Assembly (NCBI GenBank): GCA_003225335.1
Contig: QHZE01000252.1
Coordinates: 1-36,012, forward strand
Reading direction: 5' to 3'
Length of the DNA stretch: 36,012 nt
From: Acidobacteriota bacterium
GTDB lineage: Bacteria; Acidobacteriota; UBA6911
The notes beneath the pieces are model-generated. The model searched no databases, was not told the origin of the DNA, and saw only the letters and a list, made by a program, of their open reading frames with translations. Position numbers and translations under genes: made by a program. This document shows positions 12,725-36,012 of the stretch, piece by piece (within the stretch, counting starts at the first letter, position 1; each line of letters opens with the position of its first letter).

Positions 12725-12903
12725 GGCTCGCGCAGAAATAACTTCACATTTTGCTGCCGCAGCCCGGAGGGGCGCGGCGGCGAAGGGCGCGTATCGGCTT
12801 TGTTGCCGCTCCTCGACGATGTCCGACATCGCCTTCGTCGCGGCGCCTCGCATCTGCCCGCCCGGCGCTCGCGCCAAAATGTGAATTTATTTCTGCGCGA
12901 GCC
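12725..12903. mobile_element. CTTAG-flanked MITE-like element, copy A
   Basis: 179 bp with 29-bp terminal inverted repeats. The left arm begins GGCTCGCGCAGAAATAA and ends ACATTTTG; the right arm is its reverse complement with one mismatch. CTTAG flanks both sides (12720-12724, 12904-12908), so it is a candidate target duplication. The core (about 12756-12875) shares long identical blocks with copy B at 35165-35434, such as GCAGCCCGGAGGGGCGCGGC and GTTGCCGCTCCTCGACGATG. It sits 28 bp after the permease 2 stop. Short frames through it (reading ARAPGGQM on the minus strand) recur in copy B and are not genes. Confidence 0.8.
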
Positions 12904-13017
12904 CTTAGCGCCTTCGCGGTGAAACTGAGCTGGAAAAAGCCAGCCGCCGTGAACTCCTCAGAAGCTGTGGAAAAAAATTGCAGCCCGAGGTTCATCGTTT
13001 GTTTTTTGCCGATCGTG

Positions 13018-29865: not shown

Positions 29866-29883
29866 TTCGGAATGCATTCCGAA
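29866..29883. promoter_or_regulatory. Operator TTCGGAATGCATTCCGAA
   Basis: Perfect 18-bp palindrome ending 4 bp before the TTGACA box of the aldolase promoter. The inner TCGGAA-N4-TTCCGA recurs at 31817-31832 in the promoter of receptor 2, at nearly the same distance from its -35. GntR-type sugar-acid regulators bind similar GGAAT/ATTCC dyads (inference from memory). Confidence 0.75.
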
Positions 29884-29887
29884 GATC

Positions 29888-29916
29888 TTGACAGCCAGTG
29901 GCCCCGATGATACGGT
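29888..29916 (+). promoter_or_regulatory. Promoter of the DHDPS-family gene
   Basis: TTGACA (29888-29893), 17-bp spacer, TACGGT (29911-29916). The predicted start is near 29923, 23 bases before the ATG at 29946. It rules out the GTG at 29898 as the start codon. Confidence 0.7.
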
Positions 29917-29945
29917 GGAAATCGCTGTGGCCTGGGGCGCTCGCG

Positions 29946-30884
29946 ATGGACCATTCCAACCCGCACGAAATCCGGCAACTCGGCGGCGTCATTCCGCCCA
30001 TGATTACGCCGTTCTCCGACGATGATTCGATCGACAGCTCCCTGCTCCGCACCGAGACGCAGTTTCTGCTTGAAGCGGGAGTGAACGGGATTGTAGTTGG
30101 CGGCAGCACGGGCGAAGGCGCGGGTATGTCCGCCGAGGAATTGTGCGAGGCAACGTCGGTTGTCGTCGAAACCGTGAACGGGAGCATTCCGGTCCTCAGC
30201 GGCGTCATCGCTGATACGTCCGACGAAGCGGTACGGCTCGGAAAGGCGGCGCTCCGCGCCGGCGCGGCGGCCTTGCAGGTGCCGCCGCCGCATTTCAACG
30301 TTGCGATCTCGTCCGCATTGCTTTCGCGTTATTACCGTGCGATCACGGACGGGACGGGCCTGCCGCTGATCATCTATAACGTCATCCCATGGGCGCAGGT
30401 GGCCGTCGAATCGCTCGAGCATCTGGCGGCTGGGAACCCGATGATCGTCGGAGTGAAGCAAAGCGGGCGGAATATCCACCTGCTCGCGGCCTTGCTGGCG
30501 TTTCTCAAGGGGCGAATCCCAATCTACTCGGCTATCGACGATCTCGTGTATCCCTCGTTCATGCTGGGTGCCGACGGCACCATTTCCGGCACATCCAGCG
30601 TCTTCCCACGCGAAACCGTGGAGCTGTGGGAGTGCGTGCGCGAGGGGAATGTTGTGCGCGCTCTCGAGTTGCACAACGCGCTCGTGCCGGTCTGGCGCTC
30701 GCTCGACGGGCCGCAGTTTCCGAGCCGTGTCAAGTACGCACTGGCGCTCCTCGGCCGGGCCGCCGGCAAACCACGCAGCCCGTTCACGTGGCCGCGCGGT
30801 AAAGACGCTGCACGGATCGAGCAGGCCCTCGAAACCGGTGGCTTTCTCGCGGCGGGCCCGCGTGCAACCGTCTCGGAACGATAA
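29946..30884 (+). CDS. DHDPS/N-acetylneuraminate lyase-family aldolase
   Basis: Class I aldolase or dehydratase of the DapA/NanA superfamily, 312 residues, cytoplasmic TIM barrel using a Schiff-base lysine with pyruvate-type substrates. Visible: GVIPPMITPF (14-23), GGSTGEG (52-58, the GTTGE-type carboxylate loop), Tyr144 in IIYNVIP, and Lys171 in VGVKQSG. The usual IYNVPxR is IYNVIPWA, so the Arg that dihydrodipicolinate synthases use for the semialdehyde is missing; a catabolic role on a keto sugar acid is more likely than lysine synthesis (inference). Cotranscribed with the TPR gene 10 bases downstream, and shares an operator with receptor 2. Confidence 0.9.
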   Translation: MDHSNPHEIRQLGGVIPPMITPFSDDDSIDSSLLRTETQFLLEAGVNGIVVGGSTGEGAGMSAEELCEATSVVVETVNGSIPVLSGVIADTSDEAVRLGKAALRAGAAALQVPPPHFNVAISSALLSRYYRAITDGTGLPLIIYNVIPWAQVAVESLEHLAAGNPMIVGVKQSGRNIHLLAALLAFLKGRIPIYSAIDDLVYPSFMLGADGTISGTSSVFPRETVELWECVREGNVVRALELHNALVPVWRSLDGPQFPSRVKYALALLGRAAGKPRSPFTWPRGKDAARIEQALETGGFLAAGPRATVSER

Positions 30885-30894
30885 TCGAGAGAAC

Positions 30895-31772
30895 ATGATG
30901 ACCGTAAAGCTGGCGGGCCTCGGGCTGTTCGCTGTGTGCAGCGTCTACGCGCAATTTTCCGTCGATTCGCTGCCGCCGCACGGTCCTGCCGCGAAGGCGC
31001 GCGCACTCGAGCGCGCTGGCAGAGTCGCCGACGCCGAGAGCATCTTGCGCAATGCGCTCTCGGCGGGCAACGACTCGGCGGAAGTGCATGGTGCGCTTGG
31101 TCTTCTGCTTTACCGTATGGGGCGATTTCGGGATGCCGTGCCGGAGTTGGGGCGCGCTGCCCAGCTCGCGCCGGAGTCTCCCGAGTATTCGCTAAAGCTC
31201 GCCGCGGCGATTCTCGCCGACCATCGGTATTCGGTCGCGCTCGATTTCCTGAATGCGGTCGCCGGTCGTTTTGGCACTATTGCCGAGTATCAATAATGGA
31301 CGTGGCGTACTTCTTTACGGGAAATGCGTGGGCCGGCAGCGGTGATCCCGACAAAGCCGTCGCGTTCTACCGGAAAGCAATTGAAATCAATCCGAAGAGC
31401 GCGGGCTATTACCTCGCTCTCGGAAAGGTCCTGGGCTTGATCGGTCCGGAGCGCGACCCGGAATCAGCGAAGTGGCTGCGGAAAGGGCTTGCGTTGAAGC
31501 CGGGCGACGCGGCGAGCGAGTTCGCGCTTGCGCTTGCCTGCGAGCGCCTGAATGACCTGCCGTGCGCGCGTCCGCTGCTCGAAGACGTGGTGAAGCGCTA
31601 TCCCAACGAGCTTTCGCCGCGCATCGTGCTGGCGCGTATCTACGCCAAAATGCACGAGCCGGAGAAAGCCCGTACCGAGCGCGAGGCGGTGAAGCGGCTA
31701 CAGGAAGCGCAGCGCCGGTCAAATTCGGAACGGCCGTCGTTTTCGGATTCCGAGCTACACCCGCCGCGCTAG
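30895..31772 (+). pseudogene. Secreted TPR protein split at TAATG (frameshift or coupled pair)
   Basis: First frame 30895-31296 (133 residues): signal peptide (MMTVKLAGLGLFAVCSVYAQ), then TPR units, ending GTIAEYQ and stop. Second frame 31296-31772 (158 residues) begins at an ATG overlapping that stop by one base (TAATG) with MDVAYFFTGNAWAGSGDPDK and continues TPR units to SDSELHPPR. The repeat phase runs across the junction, and the second half lacks a signal peptide, so I favour one gene that lost a single base near 31294 (AEYQ-x-MDVAYFF). Two translationally coupled proteins remain possible. It lies between the aldolase and receptor 2 genes. Confidence 0.75.
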
Positions 31773-31816
31773 CGGGACCTCAACACACTCGCCTCCATGA
31801 CCGGCCGGAATCAAAA

Positions 31817-31832
31817 TCGGAAGATATTCCGA
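31817..31832. promoter_or_regulatory. Operator TCGGAAGATATTCCGA
   Basis: TCGGAA-N4-TTCCGA, the same dyad as at 29866-29883, ending 6 bp before the TTGACA box of receptor 2. Both centres lie about 49-50 bp upstream of the predicted transcription starts. Confidence 0.75.
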
Positions 31833-31838
31833 AAGCGA

Positions 31839-31867
31839 TTGACACCCTCTCAGAGGCGTGGCTAAAT
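31839..31867 (+). promoter_or_regulatory. Promoter of TonB receptor 2
   Basis: TTGACA (31839-31844), 17-bp spacer, CTAAAT (31862-31867; TAAATT one base on is an alternative at 18 bp). The predicted start is near 31874, leaving a short leader with AGGAG 6 bases before the ATG at 31887. Confidence 0.7.
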
Positions 31868-31886
31868 TCCGATCACAGGAGCTACC

Positions 31887-34800
31887 ATGAGTCACCCTTC
31901 AGTCCGTGTGTTTGTCGTGGTTTTAACACTCGTGGTTTCGCTGGCGCTCGCGCCGAGCCTCTCCGCTCAGGGCGGACGCGCTTCGATATCCGGTGTCGTC
32001 ACAGATTCGAGTGGCGCCGTGATTCCGGAGGCGGCGGTCAGCGCCGTCAACACGAATACCGGCTTCACCGTCTCCGTCAATACAAACGGGATCGGCGCGT
32101 ACGCTCTGCCGCTGCTGCCCGTCGGCACTTACGATGTGTCGGTGAAAAAAGAAGGATTCAAGACCGAACTCAGGAGTGGCATCACGCTAACAGCGGACCA
32201 GGCGGCGACGATCAACATCACCATCGCGGTCGGCTCGGTGAACGAGCAAGTCAGAGTGATCGCCGACGCAGAGATGATTAACACGCAGAACGCGGCGCTC
32301 GGACAAGTGATTCAGGAGCGGTCGATTGCAGAGTTGCCGCTGAACGGGCGCAACCCGGCGAGCCTCGTGTTGCTGACGCCCGGCATGATCGACGTATTAC
32401 AGACGGGTGGCGGCGTGCACCAGGGATATACGACGTTTCCCACCGAGGAAGGCGCCTCGGCGAATGGCGGCCGGCAGGGAAGCACTCTGTACGTGCTCGA
32501 CGGCGCCATCAACATGGACAACTATCACCTCCTCGCCGCGCCGTTCCCCAACGCCGACGCGACCCAGGAGTTCCGCGTGCTCGGAAATAACTTCGAGGCG
32601 CAGTACGGCTTCGCGCCCGGCGCAGTAGTCTCGATTGTGACCAAGTCCGGCACGAATACACTGCATGGCAATGCGTTTGAGTTCCTGCGCAATGGCGTGT
32701 TGAACGCGCGCGATTTCTTCCAGCCTGTCCGCGACGAACTGAAGCGCAATCAGTTCGGCGCATCCCTCGGCGGGCCGATCAAGAGAGACAAGATCTTCTT
32801 CTTCAGCAATTATCAGGGCACACGCGAGCGGCGGCGGGTCGGCGGGTCCACCGCGTTCGTTCCCTCCGACGCAATGTTGCAGGGCGACTTCAGCGCATAC
32901 GTCAACGCGGGCGTCACAATCCTCGACCCGGACACGGGCAAGGCGGCGCCGAACGGCTACATCTCGCCCACCCGGTTCAGTCCGGCCGCCCTGAAGATTG
33001 CGGAATCGCTGCCGCGCACCACGGATCCTCTTGGGAAAACAACCGTGAGCGGTTTCTCGAACATGCAGGACTATAACGAGTTCACCGTCAAAGGGGACGT
33101 CTACCTCAGTGCGAATCACCGGATCAGTGGCCGGACGTTTTTCAACGATTTCACCCAGCCGGAGCAGACGTTGAACTTGCTGAATTCCGATCGTTCCTGG
33201 CTGGCGCGGTGGCAGAACCATTCCGGCAATTACACGTGGACGGTGAGCCCGACGTTGTTAAACAACTTCGTCATTTCGTACTCCCGGCTGAATTCGAACA
33301 GCATCAGCGGGCTGCGCGACAAGGGCGGGAACCGGATTTGCTACTCGCAGTTGATTGAGGTCGCGGACCCGCCCAATTCGCCGTGTACGATCGAGGCGCT
33401 ATGGGTCGGCGGCTCGTTCGGCTTCGGCCAGAACTTCAACGGACTGAACCGGTCGACGTGGGGAGTTTCGGATTCGATCACGAAGACCAAGGGACGCCAC
33501 CTGATCGTCGGCGGCGTGGACGTGCTTCGGCAGTACTGGGACCTCGCGACGGACTGGCTCGCGCTGCCGATCATTTCGTTCGACGGCGGCGTCACCGGGC
33601 ATGAGCTATCCGACTTTTTGGTGGGTCGCGTCGCGAGTTACACCCAGGGCGGAGGTGAGTATCAGCGGCTCCACGCGACTCAGATCGGCGTCTATGTGCA
33701 GGATCAGATCCGAGTTGCGCAGAATCTGACGATGAGCGCCGGGGTGCGCTGGGAACCGTTCCTGGCTCCCGTGCCCTCAAGCGGCCGCATCCCGGTGTTC
33801 TCGCCGGGCGAGCAGAGCACGCGATATCCGAACGCGCCGGTTGGCGTGGTGTACCCCGGGGATCCGGGCGTGCCGGATGCGGGCGTTCCGAGCGGTTATG
33901 ACTATTTCAACCCGCGGCTGGGTCTAGCCTGGCGGCCGGGGTTCATGAAGAACACCTCTATTCGCGCGGCGTTCGGCATGTTCACCGCGCCTATCGATTA
34001 CTCGTCGTGGAACCATACGGCCGACAGCTCGCCCTTCAGCACCACGTACGACCTGTCGGCTTACGATCCGTCGATCAAGAGTATCAAGCTCGATCACCCC
34101 TGGGCGAATTACAAACCGACCGGCGGAAAGAGTCCCTTCCCGCCCTTCCCGGATCCGGGTTCATCGCCGCCAAGCGATACCCCATTCACATTGCCGATGT
34201 ATTTTCAGGCCGGATTCAACCGTAACTTCCGGCTGGCCCGCGAACTGAGTTGGAACTTTTCGATCGAACGTCAATTCGGCGAGAACTGGCTGGTACGCGC
34301 CGCGTACGTCGCTAGCGAGGCGTACCACCTCATTAACGGTATCGAGCGGAATCCGGGATTCTTCTCCGCGGAAGGTGCTCGCCTGTTGTACCCGCAGTTC
34401 ACTTCGGTGCTCGAGATGGCTTCCTGGGCAACCTCGAACTATCAATCCGGGCAGTTCACTGTGGAGAAGCGCTTCTCGAAAGGATTCCAGTTCCAATCCA
34501 ACTACACCTATTCGAAATCGCTCGACTCCGCCTCGATTGGCACGCTGGCGTTCACAGGCAGCGTCGCCGATCCGTTCAATATGCGTAACAATCGCGGCTG
34601 GTCGGCGTTTAATTTCCCGCATGTGTTCGTAAACAATTTCGTGTGGGAGCTGCCGAAGCTGAACCGCTTGAATCCCTTCGCCCGCGGAGTTATTGGCGGC
34701 TGGCAGTTGAGCGGTATCTGGCGGATGCAGTCGGGTGCTCCGGTTGGCATCCGGCCGGGATACGGAAATAACCGGTCGTTGTTCCAGACCGGTGGCGATC

Positions 34801-35159
34801 GTGCCGACTACGTACCGGGCGAAGCAATCTCGGTCCAACAGGGCAGCAAGAACGACTGGCTTCACGAATTCTTCAGCACGAGTGCATTCCAGCCGAATGC
34901 GCCCGGAACGCTTGGAAATACGCCGCGCTATTTGTTCCACGGCCCCCGGACAAACTCCTGGGACCTCGGCATCTCGAAGAACTTGATGGCGCGCGACCGC
35001 CATAAACTCCAGTTTCGCTGGGAGATGTTTAACGCGTTCAATACGCCGAGCTTCTCCACACCCGTCAACACCGTGACCAGCGCGCAATTCGGCGAAATCC
35101 TCAGCACCGGCACCGTCCCGCCGCGCGTCATGCAGGGTGCGCTAAAGCTATCTTTCTAG
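31887..35159 (+). CDS. Oar-like TonB-dependent outer-membrane receptor 2
   Basis: 1090 residues. Signal peptide (MSHPSVRVFVVVLTLVVSLA, cut near SLSAQ), carboxypeptidase-regulatory-like domain (about 33-115; SGVVTDSSGAVIPEA, YALPLLPVGTYDVSV), plug region (RSIAELPLNGRNPASLVLL, then LYVLDGAINMDNYHL) and a beta-barrel, e.g. SGTNTLHGNAFEFLRNGVLN. The C-terminus MQGALKLSF ends in the Phe typical of outer-membrane barrels. The LPLNGRN motif is common in acidobacterial receptors. Its own promoter and operator match those of the aldolase gene 2 kb upstream, so the ligand is probably the aldolase substrate or its precursor (inference). CTTAG-flanked element copy B begins five bases after the stop. Confidence 0.94.
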   Translation: MSHPSVRVFVVVLTLVVSLALAPSLSAQGGRASISGVVTDSSGAVIPEAAVSAVNTNTGFTVSVNTNGIGAYALPLLPVGTYDVSVKKEGFKTELRSGITLTADQAATINITIAVGSVNEQVRVIADAEMINTQNAALGQVIQERSIAELPLNGRNPASLVLLTPGMIDVLQTGGGVHQGYTTFPTEEGASANGGRQGSTLYVLDGAINMDNYHLLAAPFPNADATQEFRVLGNNFEAQYGFAPGAVVSIVTKSGTNTLHGNAFEFLRNGVLNARDFFQPVRDELKRNQFGASLGGPIKRDKIFFFSNYQGTRERRRVGGSTAFVPSDAMLQGDFSAYVNAGVTILDPDTGKAAPNGYISPTRFSPAALKIAESLPRTTDPLGKTTVSGFSNMQDYNEFTVKGDVYLSANHRISGRTFFNDFTQPEQTLNLLNSDRSWLARWQNHSGNYTWTVSPTLLNNFVISYSRLNSNSISGLRDKGGNRICYSQLIEVADPPNSPCTIEALWVGGSFGFGQNFNGLNRSTWGVSDSITKTKGRHLIVGGVDVLRQYWDLATDWLALPIISFDGGVTGHELSDFLVGRVASYTQGGGEYQRLHATQIGVYVQDQIRVAQNLTMSAGVRWEPFLAPVPSSGRIPVFSPGEQSTRYPNAPVGVVYPGDPGVPDAGVPSGYDYFNPRLGLAWRPGFMKNTSIRAAFGMFTAPIDYSSWNHTADSSPFSTTYDLSAYDPSIKSIKLDHPWANYKPTGGKSPFPPFPDPGSSPPSDTPFTLPMYFQAGFNRNFRLARELSWNFSIERQFGENWLVRAAYVASEAYHLINGIERNPGFFSAEGARLLYPQFTSVLEMASWATSNYQSGQFTVEKRFSKGFQFQSNYTYSKSLDSASIGTLAFTGSVADPFNMRNNRGWSAFNFPHVFVNNFVWELPKLNRLNPFARGVIGGWQLSGIWRMQSGAPVGIRPGYGNNRSLFQTGGDRADYVPGEAISVQQGSKNDWLHEFFSTSAFQPNAPGTLGNTPRYLFHGPRTNSWDLGISKNLMARDRHKLQFRWEMFNAFNTPSFSTPVNTVTSAQFGEILSTGTVPPRVMQGALKLSF

Positions 35160-35164
35160 CTTAG

Positions 35165-35434
35165 GGCCCGTCAGGAAATAAGGTGTACATTTTGCTGCTG
35201 GCCCCCAGGCCCGCTGGCAAGGCGCGAGCGACGAGCATACCCGCTGCGGTATGTAAGGAGCGAGCAACGCAGCCAGGGGGCCTGCGGGCCGCAGCCCGGA
35301 GGGGCGCGGCGGCGGGCGGGCATCTGCGGCGTTGCCGCTCCTCGACGATGTCACTACATCGCCTGCGTCGCGGCGCCTTGCATCTGCCCGCCCGGCGCTC
35401 GCGCCAAAATGCACACCTTATTTCCTGACGGGCC
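35165..35434. mobile_element. CTTAG-flanked MITE-like element, copy B
   Basis: 270 bp, 30-bp terminal inverted repeats (left arm starts GGCCCGTCAGGAAATAAGG and ends ACATTTTG; one mismatch between arms), flanked by CTTAG (35160-35164 and 35435-35439). The core matches copy A in long blocks, but a palindromic insert of roughly 70-90 bp (about 35201-35290, with GCATACCCGCTGCGGTATGT at its centre) is present only here. Further nested dyads lie around GATGT-CACT-ACATC and GGCGGGCA/TGCCCGCC. It may also end receptor 2 transcription. Confidence 0.8.
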
Positions 35435-35449
35435 CTTAGTATACAGGGG

Positions 35450-35748
35450 CATAAATACGGTAACGTGTTCCGCCCCGCCTATGGGTCGAAGCTCTTCCAC
35501 CCCGAAGGGGTGTGAGGAAATTAGCCAGGGGTGAGCGCTTTTTGCGAACCCCTGGATACACCAACAACCCCGCCCTGGAGGGGCGGAAGGACTGGAGTTC
35601 AGGTTAAAATGTTGAGTGAACAAGTCCGGCTGCCCCTGCCGGGGCGCGTTGGTCACGTAGGCTCTGTTCCAGGGGTTCGCAAAAGGCGCTCACCCCTGGC
35701 TAAGCTCCCACGCGCCCCGCTGGGGCGAAATTGGTTACCGTATTTATG
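35450..35748. repeat. Long nested inverted repeat (about 300 bp)
   Basis: Outer arms CATAAATACGGTAAC (35450-35464) and GTTACCGTATTTATG (35734-35748) are perfectly complementary. Inner arms of 33 bp (35523-35555 and 35669-35701) match at 32 positions and begin AGCCAGGGGTGAGCGC. Each inner arm is itself a partial palindrome (CCAGGGG...CCCCTGG). Small CCCC/GGGG hairpins such as CGCCCCGCTGGGGCG punctuate the interior. No gene is seen. Confidence 0.85.
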
Positions 35749-35788
35749 AACCAGAGTACTTAGCTAACATGTCTTGAGTCCCAGTTTG

Positions 35789-35843
35789 GGGGGCGGGCTT
35801 TGGTCCGCTCCGGACTTTACGCGCCGGGCTGAGGCCCGCCCCC
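35789..35843. repeat. GC-rich hairpin before the symporter gene
   Basis: GGGGGCGGGC (35789-35798) pairs with GCCCGCCCCC (35834-35843), with an inner GGTCCG-CTC-CGGACT dyad. It lies 34 bases before the symporter ATG and has no T-run. Confidence 0.65.
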
Positions 35844-35877
35844 TGTTTGCGCTGGCTGGTTGAGGCTGATCTCCCTC

Positions 35878-36012
35878 ATGCATCTCGCCGCCATCGATCT
35901 CGCCATCCTGTTCGCATACGTTCTCTTCGTCATCGGCGTTGGCTATTGGCTCAAGGACCGGATGAAAACATCCGAGGACTTCCTTCTCGCGGGCCGTTCG
36001 CTGCCAGCCTGG
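35878..36012 (+). CDS. Sodium:solute symporter (SSS family), N-terminal part
   Basis: The first 45 residues of a protein that runs off the window. The N-terminal transmembrane helix (about 4-24, IDLAILFAYVLFVIGVGYWL) and the following KTSEDFLLAGRSLPAW are the hallmark start of SSS-family sodium/solute cotransporters (sugars, sialic acid, proline and others). The ATG at 35878 has a GAGG 13 bases upstream, which is distant. Coming after the aldolase, TPR and receptor genes, it is a natural inner-membrane partner for the same substrate, though about 700 bp of repeats intervene and I find no TCGGAA-N4-TTCCGA site before it. Confidence 0.9.
   Translation, partial: MHLAAIDLAILFAYVLFVIGVGYWLKDRMKTSEDFLLAGRSLPAW

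Follow-up and report, generated by a model that had tools for sequence, protein, structure and literature searches.

Gene content of the locus and a shared operator

The stretch of DNA analysed here, hereafter the window, is a whole contig of 36,012 bases (QHZE01000252.1) from a soil Acidobacteriota bacterium whose assembly amounts to 7.54 Mb in 795 contigs. Positions 29866 to 36012 of this window contain, in this order, the genes for a DHDPS-superfamily aldolase, a TPR protein and an Oar-type TonB-dependent receptor, followed by the start (45 codons) of an SSS symporter gene (Table 1). A preliminary description of this DNA had interpreted these genes as a candidate uptake and catabolic locus for a keto sugar acid or a sialic-acid-like compound and had proposed that two of them are co-regulated. 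The latter proposal is borne out by the promoters of the aldolase and receptor genes, at both of which a palindrome, TTCGGAATNNATTCCGAA, sits 4-5 bp 5' of a TTGACA box, the centres of the two operators being located some 62 and 71 bp 5' of the start codons. Two sites with up to two mismatches are observed in the window, as opposed to 0.033 expected per shuffle (30 first-order shuffles), and the same two sites account for two of the five such places in the whole assembly. With three mismatches the assembly presents 42 places, compared with 8 for the reversed pattern, and the exact match is single in its 7.54 Mb. A looser pattern (CGGAAYNNRTTCCG, one mismatch) was discarded as too loose, with 154 places versus 62 in the control. 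The aldolase and the receptor thus share an operator and are co-regulated.

Table 1. Features of the window between positions 29866 and 36012.
Feature	Position	Strand	Remarks
Operator	29866..29883	.	TTCGGAATGCATTCCGAA, exact 18-bp palindrome 5' of aldolase
-35 box TTGACA, aldolase promoter	29888..29893	+	4 bp past operator; -10 weak
DHDPS/NAL-superfamily class I aldolase, 312 aa	29946..30884	+	Tyr144, Lys171, YNVIPWAQ...GVKQS
Secreted TPR protein, N-terminal part, gene interrupted	30895..31296	+	
Same TPR protein, C-terminal part, other frame	31296..31772	+	TAATG junction
Second operator	31816..31833	.	ATCGGAAGATATTCCGAA, 2 mismatches, 5' of receptor
-35 box TTGACA, receptor promoter	31839..31844	+	5 bp past operator; CTAAAT at -10 place, 17 bp on
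Oar-type TonB-dependent receptor, 1090 aa	31887..35159	+	
SSS symporter, first 45 codons	35878..36012	+	Cut by contig end

Gene neighbourhoods and operators in related Acidobacteria

The closest aldolases are all found in metagenome-assembled genomes of Acidobacteria and are 66% (locus L008), 58% (L009), 54% (L010), 47% (L011) and 46% (L012) identical to that of the window. In L009 the aldolase gene is accompanied by a second DHDPS-family gene and by genes for an MFS transporter, an SDR enzyme, a DUF2961 (GH172 family) protein, an SSS symporter and an IclR regulator. The L010 neighbourhood comprises a receptor piece, an FG-GAP/ASPIC protein, three GH2 genes, the aldolase, a DUF2961 gene, a metallo-beta-lactamase-like gene, a second DHDPS-family gene, an SDR gene and an IclR gene, and that of L008 holds the aldolase, a second DHDPS-family gene, an enolase-superfamily dehydratase, an IclR gene and an ASPIC protein. 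A dehydratase is present in the aldolase locus of L008, L009, L010 and L118.

The genomes of L008 to L012 were scanned with the pattern TTCGGAAYNNRTTCCGAA, allowing up to two mismatches, against a control. In the L010 genome (6.0 Mb) there are 19 places versus 5 in the control, and the four that deviate at no more than one position all fall on its 27-kb contig. The L009 genome (9.1 Mb) yields 21 places versus 7, and its five places with at most one mismatch are confined to two contigs, one with the aldolase and the other with the receptor orthologue. The best site of the L012 genome (7 places versus 2) lies 5' of the DHDPS gene whose product is 46% identical to the window's, with a dehydratase gene, a GH2-like gene, an SSS gene (59% to that of L009) and DhaK/DhaL genes nearby. 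Two sites of the L008 genome lie between the dehydratase and IclR genes, and one 5' of a second aldolase-family gene that adjoins an SSS gene 72% identical to that of L009.

When sites that deviate from the strict pattern at no more than three positions are counted across the window plus seven relative stretches, the total is 20 distinct sites (in 21 rows, since one site falls where two stretches overlap and is listed twice). Thirteen of these have a TTGACA (or TTGACG, TTGACC) box 2-6 bp away that is directed at a gene of the putative regulon: the receptor in the window, L116 and L117; the aldolase in the window, L009, L010 and L118; the dehydratase in L008, L009 and L010; a GH2 gene in L117; a GH172-type gene in L009; and a second aldolase-family gene in L119. 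The operator also proved predictive, since the sites L010:15207 and L009:636 pointed at spots that had been listed with antisense open reading frames (ORFs) only, and both spots held dehydratase genes, the former 67% identical over 341 aa to that of L008 and the latter 81% identical to it over 106 aa. Elsewhere in the L009 genome, contig C268 (L121) presents a site before two GH2 genes, to which a second DHDPS-family gene (65%) and a partial dehydratase gene (71%) are adjacent. Both this contig (L121, 2-502) and that of L009 (2-319) begin inside a dehydratase gene, and hence they probably adjoin.

Family placement of the aldolase

The window aldolase belongs to the DHDPS/NAL superfamily of class I aldolases, and the residues named in the preliminary description are in place. 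The intact gene, with its ATG at 29946, encodes a product that matches Pfam DHDPS (E 2.2e-53, 181 bits versus a cut-off of 22.1), its Lys171 and Tyr144 coincide with the equivalent residues in an alignment with E. coli DapA, and its segment YNVIPWAQ is without the DapA arginine. The best of five fold models reaches a predicted template modelling score of 0.87 (the other four have a mean predicted local distance difference test score of 56-62) and its top fold matches in the PDB are DHDPS and NanA structures, a search that does not separate DapA, NanA and YagE. The aldolase falls below the cut-off of every NCBIfam model matched, the best being dapA (TIGR00674, 161.3 versus 206.15 bits).

For the alignment, L008 to L012 were taken from nine relative loci, with L016 as reference row; L013 (neighbourhood like that of L012), L014 (one gene spread across two ORFs) and L015 were left out. 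Trees were computed from 30 rows first, and the tree subjected to the approximately unbiased (AU) test had 25, two near-duplicates and three very long paralogues from the window's own genome having been removed. The aldolase groups with those of L008 to L010 (support 100/99) within a broader group of 17 rows (98/96), to which Azospirillum, Shinella, Rhizobium, Sinorhizobium, Burkholderia and Halomarina contribute plasmid-borne proteins. The motif YNV[I/V]PW is found in 14 of the 17 rows and KQS in 15, the exceptions being the Burkholderia and Halomarina proteins and the second DHDPS-family protein of L009. This last protein, encoded beside the aldolase (1761-2693), is without the Schiff-base lysine in the alignment and is perhaps not an aldolase. 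The window aldolase belongs to a DHDPS subfamily (YNV[I/V]PW, KQS) in which no characterised member was found, and searches of open-access papers turned up none on this subfamily or on the acidobacterial regulon, PMC3174227 yielding nothing of relevance either. A strict-limit search of 149 relatives, 38 class genomes and 396 phylum genomes, sets that overlap, returned the aldolase only in its own genome, at most five candidates being scored per phylum genome. More distant relatives occur in nine plasmid regions. In the seven of these that are annotated the aldolases are 34-40% identical; IclR genes are present in six of the seven, dihydroxyacetone kinase genes in five and enolase-superfamily genes in one. 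In the proteobacterial loci L088, L089, L095, L096 and L097 the aldolase relatives stand beside dihydroxyacetone kinase and IclR genes; L089, L095 and L096 also have a second DHDPS-family gene, and L089 and L097 an aminotransferase gene.

The preliminary description had itself raised the prospect that the aldolase might fall with the lysine-biosynthetic DapA and have no catabolic genes downstream. A rival reading is that the aldolase is the lysine enzyme of the genome and has uptake genes next to it by chance. The DapA name is indeed carried by the best NCBIfam model (161 bits) and by the best solved-structure and fold matches, and no other DHDPS homologue found in the genome exceeds the dapA cut-off of 206 bits either (163, 161, 93, 50 and none). 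Nevertheless, the AU test rejects its grouping with E. coli DapA (p 5e-60), the DapA arginine is absent, the aldolase has its operator in common with a TonB receptor and, unlike a biosynthetic gene, it is present in one of 396 phylum genomes (at E 1e-70, with at most five candidates scored per genome). Moreover, catabolic genes are found near the relatives' aldolases (dehydratase, GH2, GH172-type, SSS and MFS, with DhaK/DhaL in one), and a role as DapA seems scarcely credible. A 2-keto-3-deoxygluconate aldolase of the YagE type was set aside as well, the grouping with YagE being rejected less firmly (p 0.013), a result of moderate weight because of the long branch.

Receptor, TPR gene and symporter

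The receptor gene is intact and its product shows the OMP_b-brl_4 (E 8.4e-189) and CarboxypepD_reg domains in Pfam, a layout that we take to be the one named Oar-type, in agreement with the preliminary description. Over 1091 columns it shares 58% identity with the receptor encoded behind an operator in L117, on the contig of L010, where the gene order is TPR gene, operator, receptor and ASPIC gene. An orthologue in the L009 genome, on the second operator contig, consists of two ORFs (46-55% identical) beside ASPIC and TPR genes. In both L116 (50-3165) and L117 (6109-12287), TPR and FG-GAP/ASPIC-UnbV proteins are encoded next to the Oar-type receptor, and it is possible that they are accessory proteins of it. 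A polysaccharide utilization locus (PUL) of the SusC/SusD type was considered and dismissed, as no SusD family was found in a Pfam scan of 17 ORFs of the window and 30 of the relatives, which left smaller and unscanned ORFs uncovered.

The secreted TPR protein of the preliminary description is recognizable, but its gene is broken into two frames that overlap at TAATG. Three homologous TPR proteins, two of them encoded beside the receptors of L116 and L117, have about 29 extra residues at the junction; given the frame switch and the missing residues, the gene would have suffered either a deletion with frame change or an assembly error, such as a collapse of TPR repeats.

Two inverted-repeat elements flanked by CTTAG (35160-35439 and 35435-35763), which look like miniature inverted-repeat transposable elements, separate the receptor from the symporter. 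Full or partial copies of the first (56-281 nt, 87-97% identical) occur on six other stretches of the same genome, with a partial copy also at 12756-12908 of the window, and the second has one copy (89%) on contig C153.

The SSS symporter was likewise correctly named, although only 45 codons of it are available because the contig stops at 36012, and this piece has no Pfam match alone; it is 78% identical over 45 aa to the full SSS symporter of L009. When the remainder was sought across the assembly with the full L009 protein, no contig was found to carry it, the other matches being 25-28% identical. With 45 aa being too few, the affinity of the symporter was judged on the L009 protein (533 aa), whose nearest match is the bacterial sodium/glucose cotransporter 2xq2 (E 3e-47), as compared to E 4e-20 for 5nv9, which we take to be SiaT. 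An identity of the symporter as SiaT was rejected on these grounds.

The same results bear on a sialic or nonulosonic acid locus, in which a NanA-type lyase would be paired with a SiaT-type SSS symporter. The aldolase and NanA share a superfamily, GGSTGEG and GVKQS of the former resemble GGSTGEA and ALKQT of E. coli NanA, the top fold matches include NanA structures and, even though the aldolase stands apart from NanA in the free tree, a grouping with E. coli NanA is not rejected (AU p 0.098), the NanA branch being long. Against this, the aldolase scores poorly with the NanA models of NCBIfam (97.4 of 382 and 110.8 of 281 bits), the L009 symporter is closer to 2xq2 than to 5nv9 and no sialidase, NanE or NanK family was found in the 30 relatives' ORFs scanned with Pfam, other ORFs being unscanned. 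In addition, the steady neighbour of the aldolase is a dehydratase, which is dispensable in sialate catabolism. A sialic acid locus is therefore regarded as very improbable.

A candidate regulator

The IclR proteins of L008, L009 and L010 are 52-62% identical to each other, whereas the IclR homologues of L011 and L012 are only 26-33% identical to this set, and the best models for the relatives' IclR proteins are KdgR and BhcR, below cut-off. Judging by gene company, the regulator of the operator is most likely an IclR-family (KdgR-like) protein. The consensus that PMC8222616 gives for IclR group 2 is TGRAACAN1-2TGTTYCA, with sites located 20-80 bp 5' of the start, a range within which both operator centres of the window fall. 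The position of the operator just 5' of the -35 box would be in keeping with an activator and would also allow a repressor.

Proposed pathway and substrate

On the basis of the genes, operators, promoter geometry, orthology and co-occurrence described above, we consider it likely, with a probability of roughly 0.78, that the window ends inside an IclR-controlled regulon that serves to import a sugar or small glycoside and to degrade the sugar acid derived from it by a non-phosphorylative route. The preliminary description would accordingly hold in its sugar-acid version, to which the shared operators and the orthologue neighbourhoods point, and not in its sialic-acid version, which is disfavoured by the NanA scores and the affinity of the L009 symporter (with the AU p of 0.098 for the E. 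coli NanA grouping in mind). In the regulon that we infer, an IclR-family (KdgR-like) regulator would bind TTCGGAATNNATTCCGAA just 5' of the -35 box and switch the aldolase and the Oar-type receptor together. The receptor would bring a glycan fragment through the outer membrane, from which GH2 and GH172-type hydrolases may free a monosaccharide. Its entry into the cell would fall to an SGLT-like SSS symporter or to an MFS sugar-acid carrier. An SDR enzyme might oxidise the sugar to the acid, the enolase-superfamily dehydratase would yield a 2-keto-3-deoxy acid and the YNVIPWAQ aldolase would split it, via a Schiff base on Lys171, into pyruvate and an aldehyde. Where the aldehyde is a triose, it could be phosphorylated by a DhaK/DhaL kinase (one acidobacterial and several proteobacterial relatives), and no early kinase step would be involved in the breakdown of the sugar acid. 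The identity of the regulator, the enzyme activities, the sign of regulation and the substrate are deduced, as is the location of the missing genes beyond the contig end.

Regarding the substrate, we tentatively favour a hexonate of the galactonate or gluconate type, at slightly less than even odds. The dehydratases of L008 and L118 have the D-gluconate/D-galactonate dehydratase as their best NCBIfam model (290-310 bits versus a cut-off of 750), a further best-matching model gives 252-265 versus 311 bits and the best match of the L117 MFS protein is the D-galactonate transporter model, also below cut-off. Three families (dehydratase, MFS and SSS) hence point in the same direction, none of them over an equivalog cut-off, and the DhaK/DhaL kinase, fitting a triose product, argues for a six-carbon acid. 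The same regulon might instead serve a pentonate or deoxy-sugar acid, such as D-arabinonate formed after the action of a GH172-type D-arabinofuranosidase, a rival on the substrate only. DUF2961 (GH172) genes are present in L009 and L010; the GH172 enzymes studied in PMC10115798 are D-arabinofuranosidases and another, described in PMC8605356, acts on alpha-fructofuranosyl linkages, specificities that keep a pentonate in consideration. Yet the relatives' dehydratase scores much lower with the archaeal arabinonate dehydratase model (127-143 bits), dehydratase and MFS are closest to gluconate/galactonate models and DhaK/DhaL suits a triose product, all of which makes a pentonate unlikely, if by no means negligible.

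Weighing the regulon

Several results weigh against this regulon. No dehydratase, hydrolase or regulator gene was found in the window. In the own assembly, the closest IclR protein is 33% identical to that of L009 and encoded on C66, and the closest enolase-superfamily protein is 42% identical to the L008 dehydratase and encoded on C159, both contigs being without an operator of up to two mismatches; the genome's own regulator would lie beyond the contig end or be unassembled. The two-mismatch sites on C153, C664 and C189 of the own genome have no genes of the putative regulon, 15 panel proteins having been sought, and the singleness of the exact operator among 396 phylum genomes (own included) says little, because the aldolase was seen in none of the others. 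There is no overall excess of operators in the L008 genome (12 places versus 12 in the control) and the L011 genome presents one place versus 2. Seven of the 20 sites break the geometry rule: 11202 and 33467 in the window, L008 3927, L009 8784, L119 5147, L116 6880 (a second site 5' of 6801) and L117 15436, before an esterase-like gene. While the half box is that of IclR group 2, the spacing is 1-2 nt tighter (2 nt from GRAAC to GTTYC, as opposed to 3-4 nt), and the regulator could for this reason be of another kind. DhaK/DhaL genes were found in one acidobacterial locus only (L118) and, as no enzyme exceeds an equivalog cut-off, the hexonate is a guess among related sugar acids.

Away from the seed loci there are 50 places in the five relatives, of which 14 were viewed (without any of the 14 that lie in the L010 genome) together with three in the own genome, on 16 contigs and with the same 15 panel proteins, several contigs being covered for about 1.5 kb on each side. 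On five contigs the site is accompanied by genes of the putative regulon, on one it falls inside a GH172-type coding region, and ten are without panel proteins, a further point of the same kind. No panel proteins were found at G397:C177, G396:C136, C342, C383, G400:C32, C8 and G399:C8, mostly within about 1.5 kb on each side, and G396:C307 was not counted as a GH172-type target, its site lying within the coding region. G400:C89 (L135, 8811-11045) may carry a decayed version of the cluster: an IclR gene (50% identical) occurs there with broken-looking dehydratase and aldolase pieces, and its site departs from the strict pattern at three positions.

The frequent lack of such genes at off-seed sites and the failure to find the IclR gene in the own assembly would also be expected if the aldolase and the receptor were merely under a general regulator and did not belong to one pathway. 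The best sites, on the other hand, concentrate on contigs with genes of the putative regulon in the L009 and L010 genomes, and a general regulator is deemed improbable.

Significance and comparison with known systems

Acidobacteria are abundant in soil and possess many Oar-type receptors, the ligands of which are mostly unknown. An operator that links one such receptor to a catabolic pathway offers a way of assigning ligands by regulon. The aldolase subfamily, also present in rhizobia and Azospirillum and represented by outliers in Burkholderia and a haloarchaeon, is amenable to testing. The pathway is probably of an ordinary kind, with an uncharacterised aldolase and with an Oar-type receptor in the place of the usual one. 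It is conceivable, though we rate it a shade below an even chance, that the whole represents a SusCD-free acidobacterial glycan regulon, in which an Oar-type receptor with TPR and FG-GAP/ASPIC partners, GH2 and GH172-type hydrolases and a non-phosphorylative pathway with a YNV[I/V]PW aldolase are joined by one IclR-type operator of unusually tight half-site spacing.

Among known systems, sialic-acid loci of the NanA/SiaT kind use the same aldolase and symporter superfamilies, but profile scores and partner genes differ. The non-phosphorylative Entner-Doudoroff pathways for galactonate and gluconate combine a gluconate/galactonate dehydratase with a DHDPS-type aldolase, the same kinds of enzyme as here, where no member exceeds its equivalog cut-off. 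In Salmonella, as described in PMC12445098, an IclR-type regulator acts with DHDPS aldolase, dehydratase and MFS genes in growth on xylonate. These xylonate genes (xynABC/SL1344_3500 of Salmonella, yagE/yagF with XynR of E. coli and the YjhI regulon), as presented in that source, resemble the regulon proposed here in comprising an IclR protein, a DHDPS-superfamily aldolase, a dehydratase and a transporter and in converting a sugar acid into pyruvate and an aldehyde (PMC12445098). They differ in that the relatives' dehydratase is of the enolase superfamily and not a dihydroxy-acid dehydratase, in that the operator is here borne by an outer-membrane receptor and glycoside hydrolases, and in the aldolase subfamily (AU p 0.013 against YagE). 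Finally, in the PULs of Bacteroidetes (SusC/SusD) the receptor, the hydrolases and the catabolic genes are likewise controlled jointly. The joint control is alike, whereas here the receptor is Oar-type (OMP_b-brl_4), no SusD appears in the scanned ORFs and TPR and FG-GAP/ASPIC proteins stand beside the receptor in L116 and L117.

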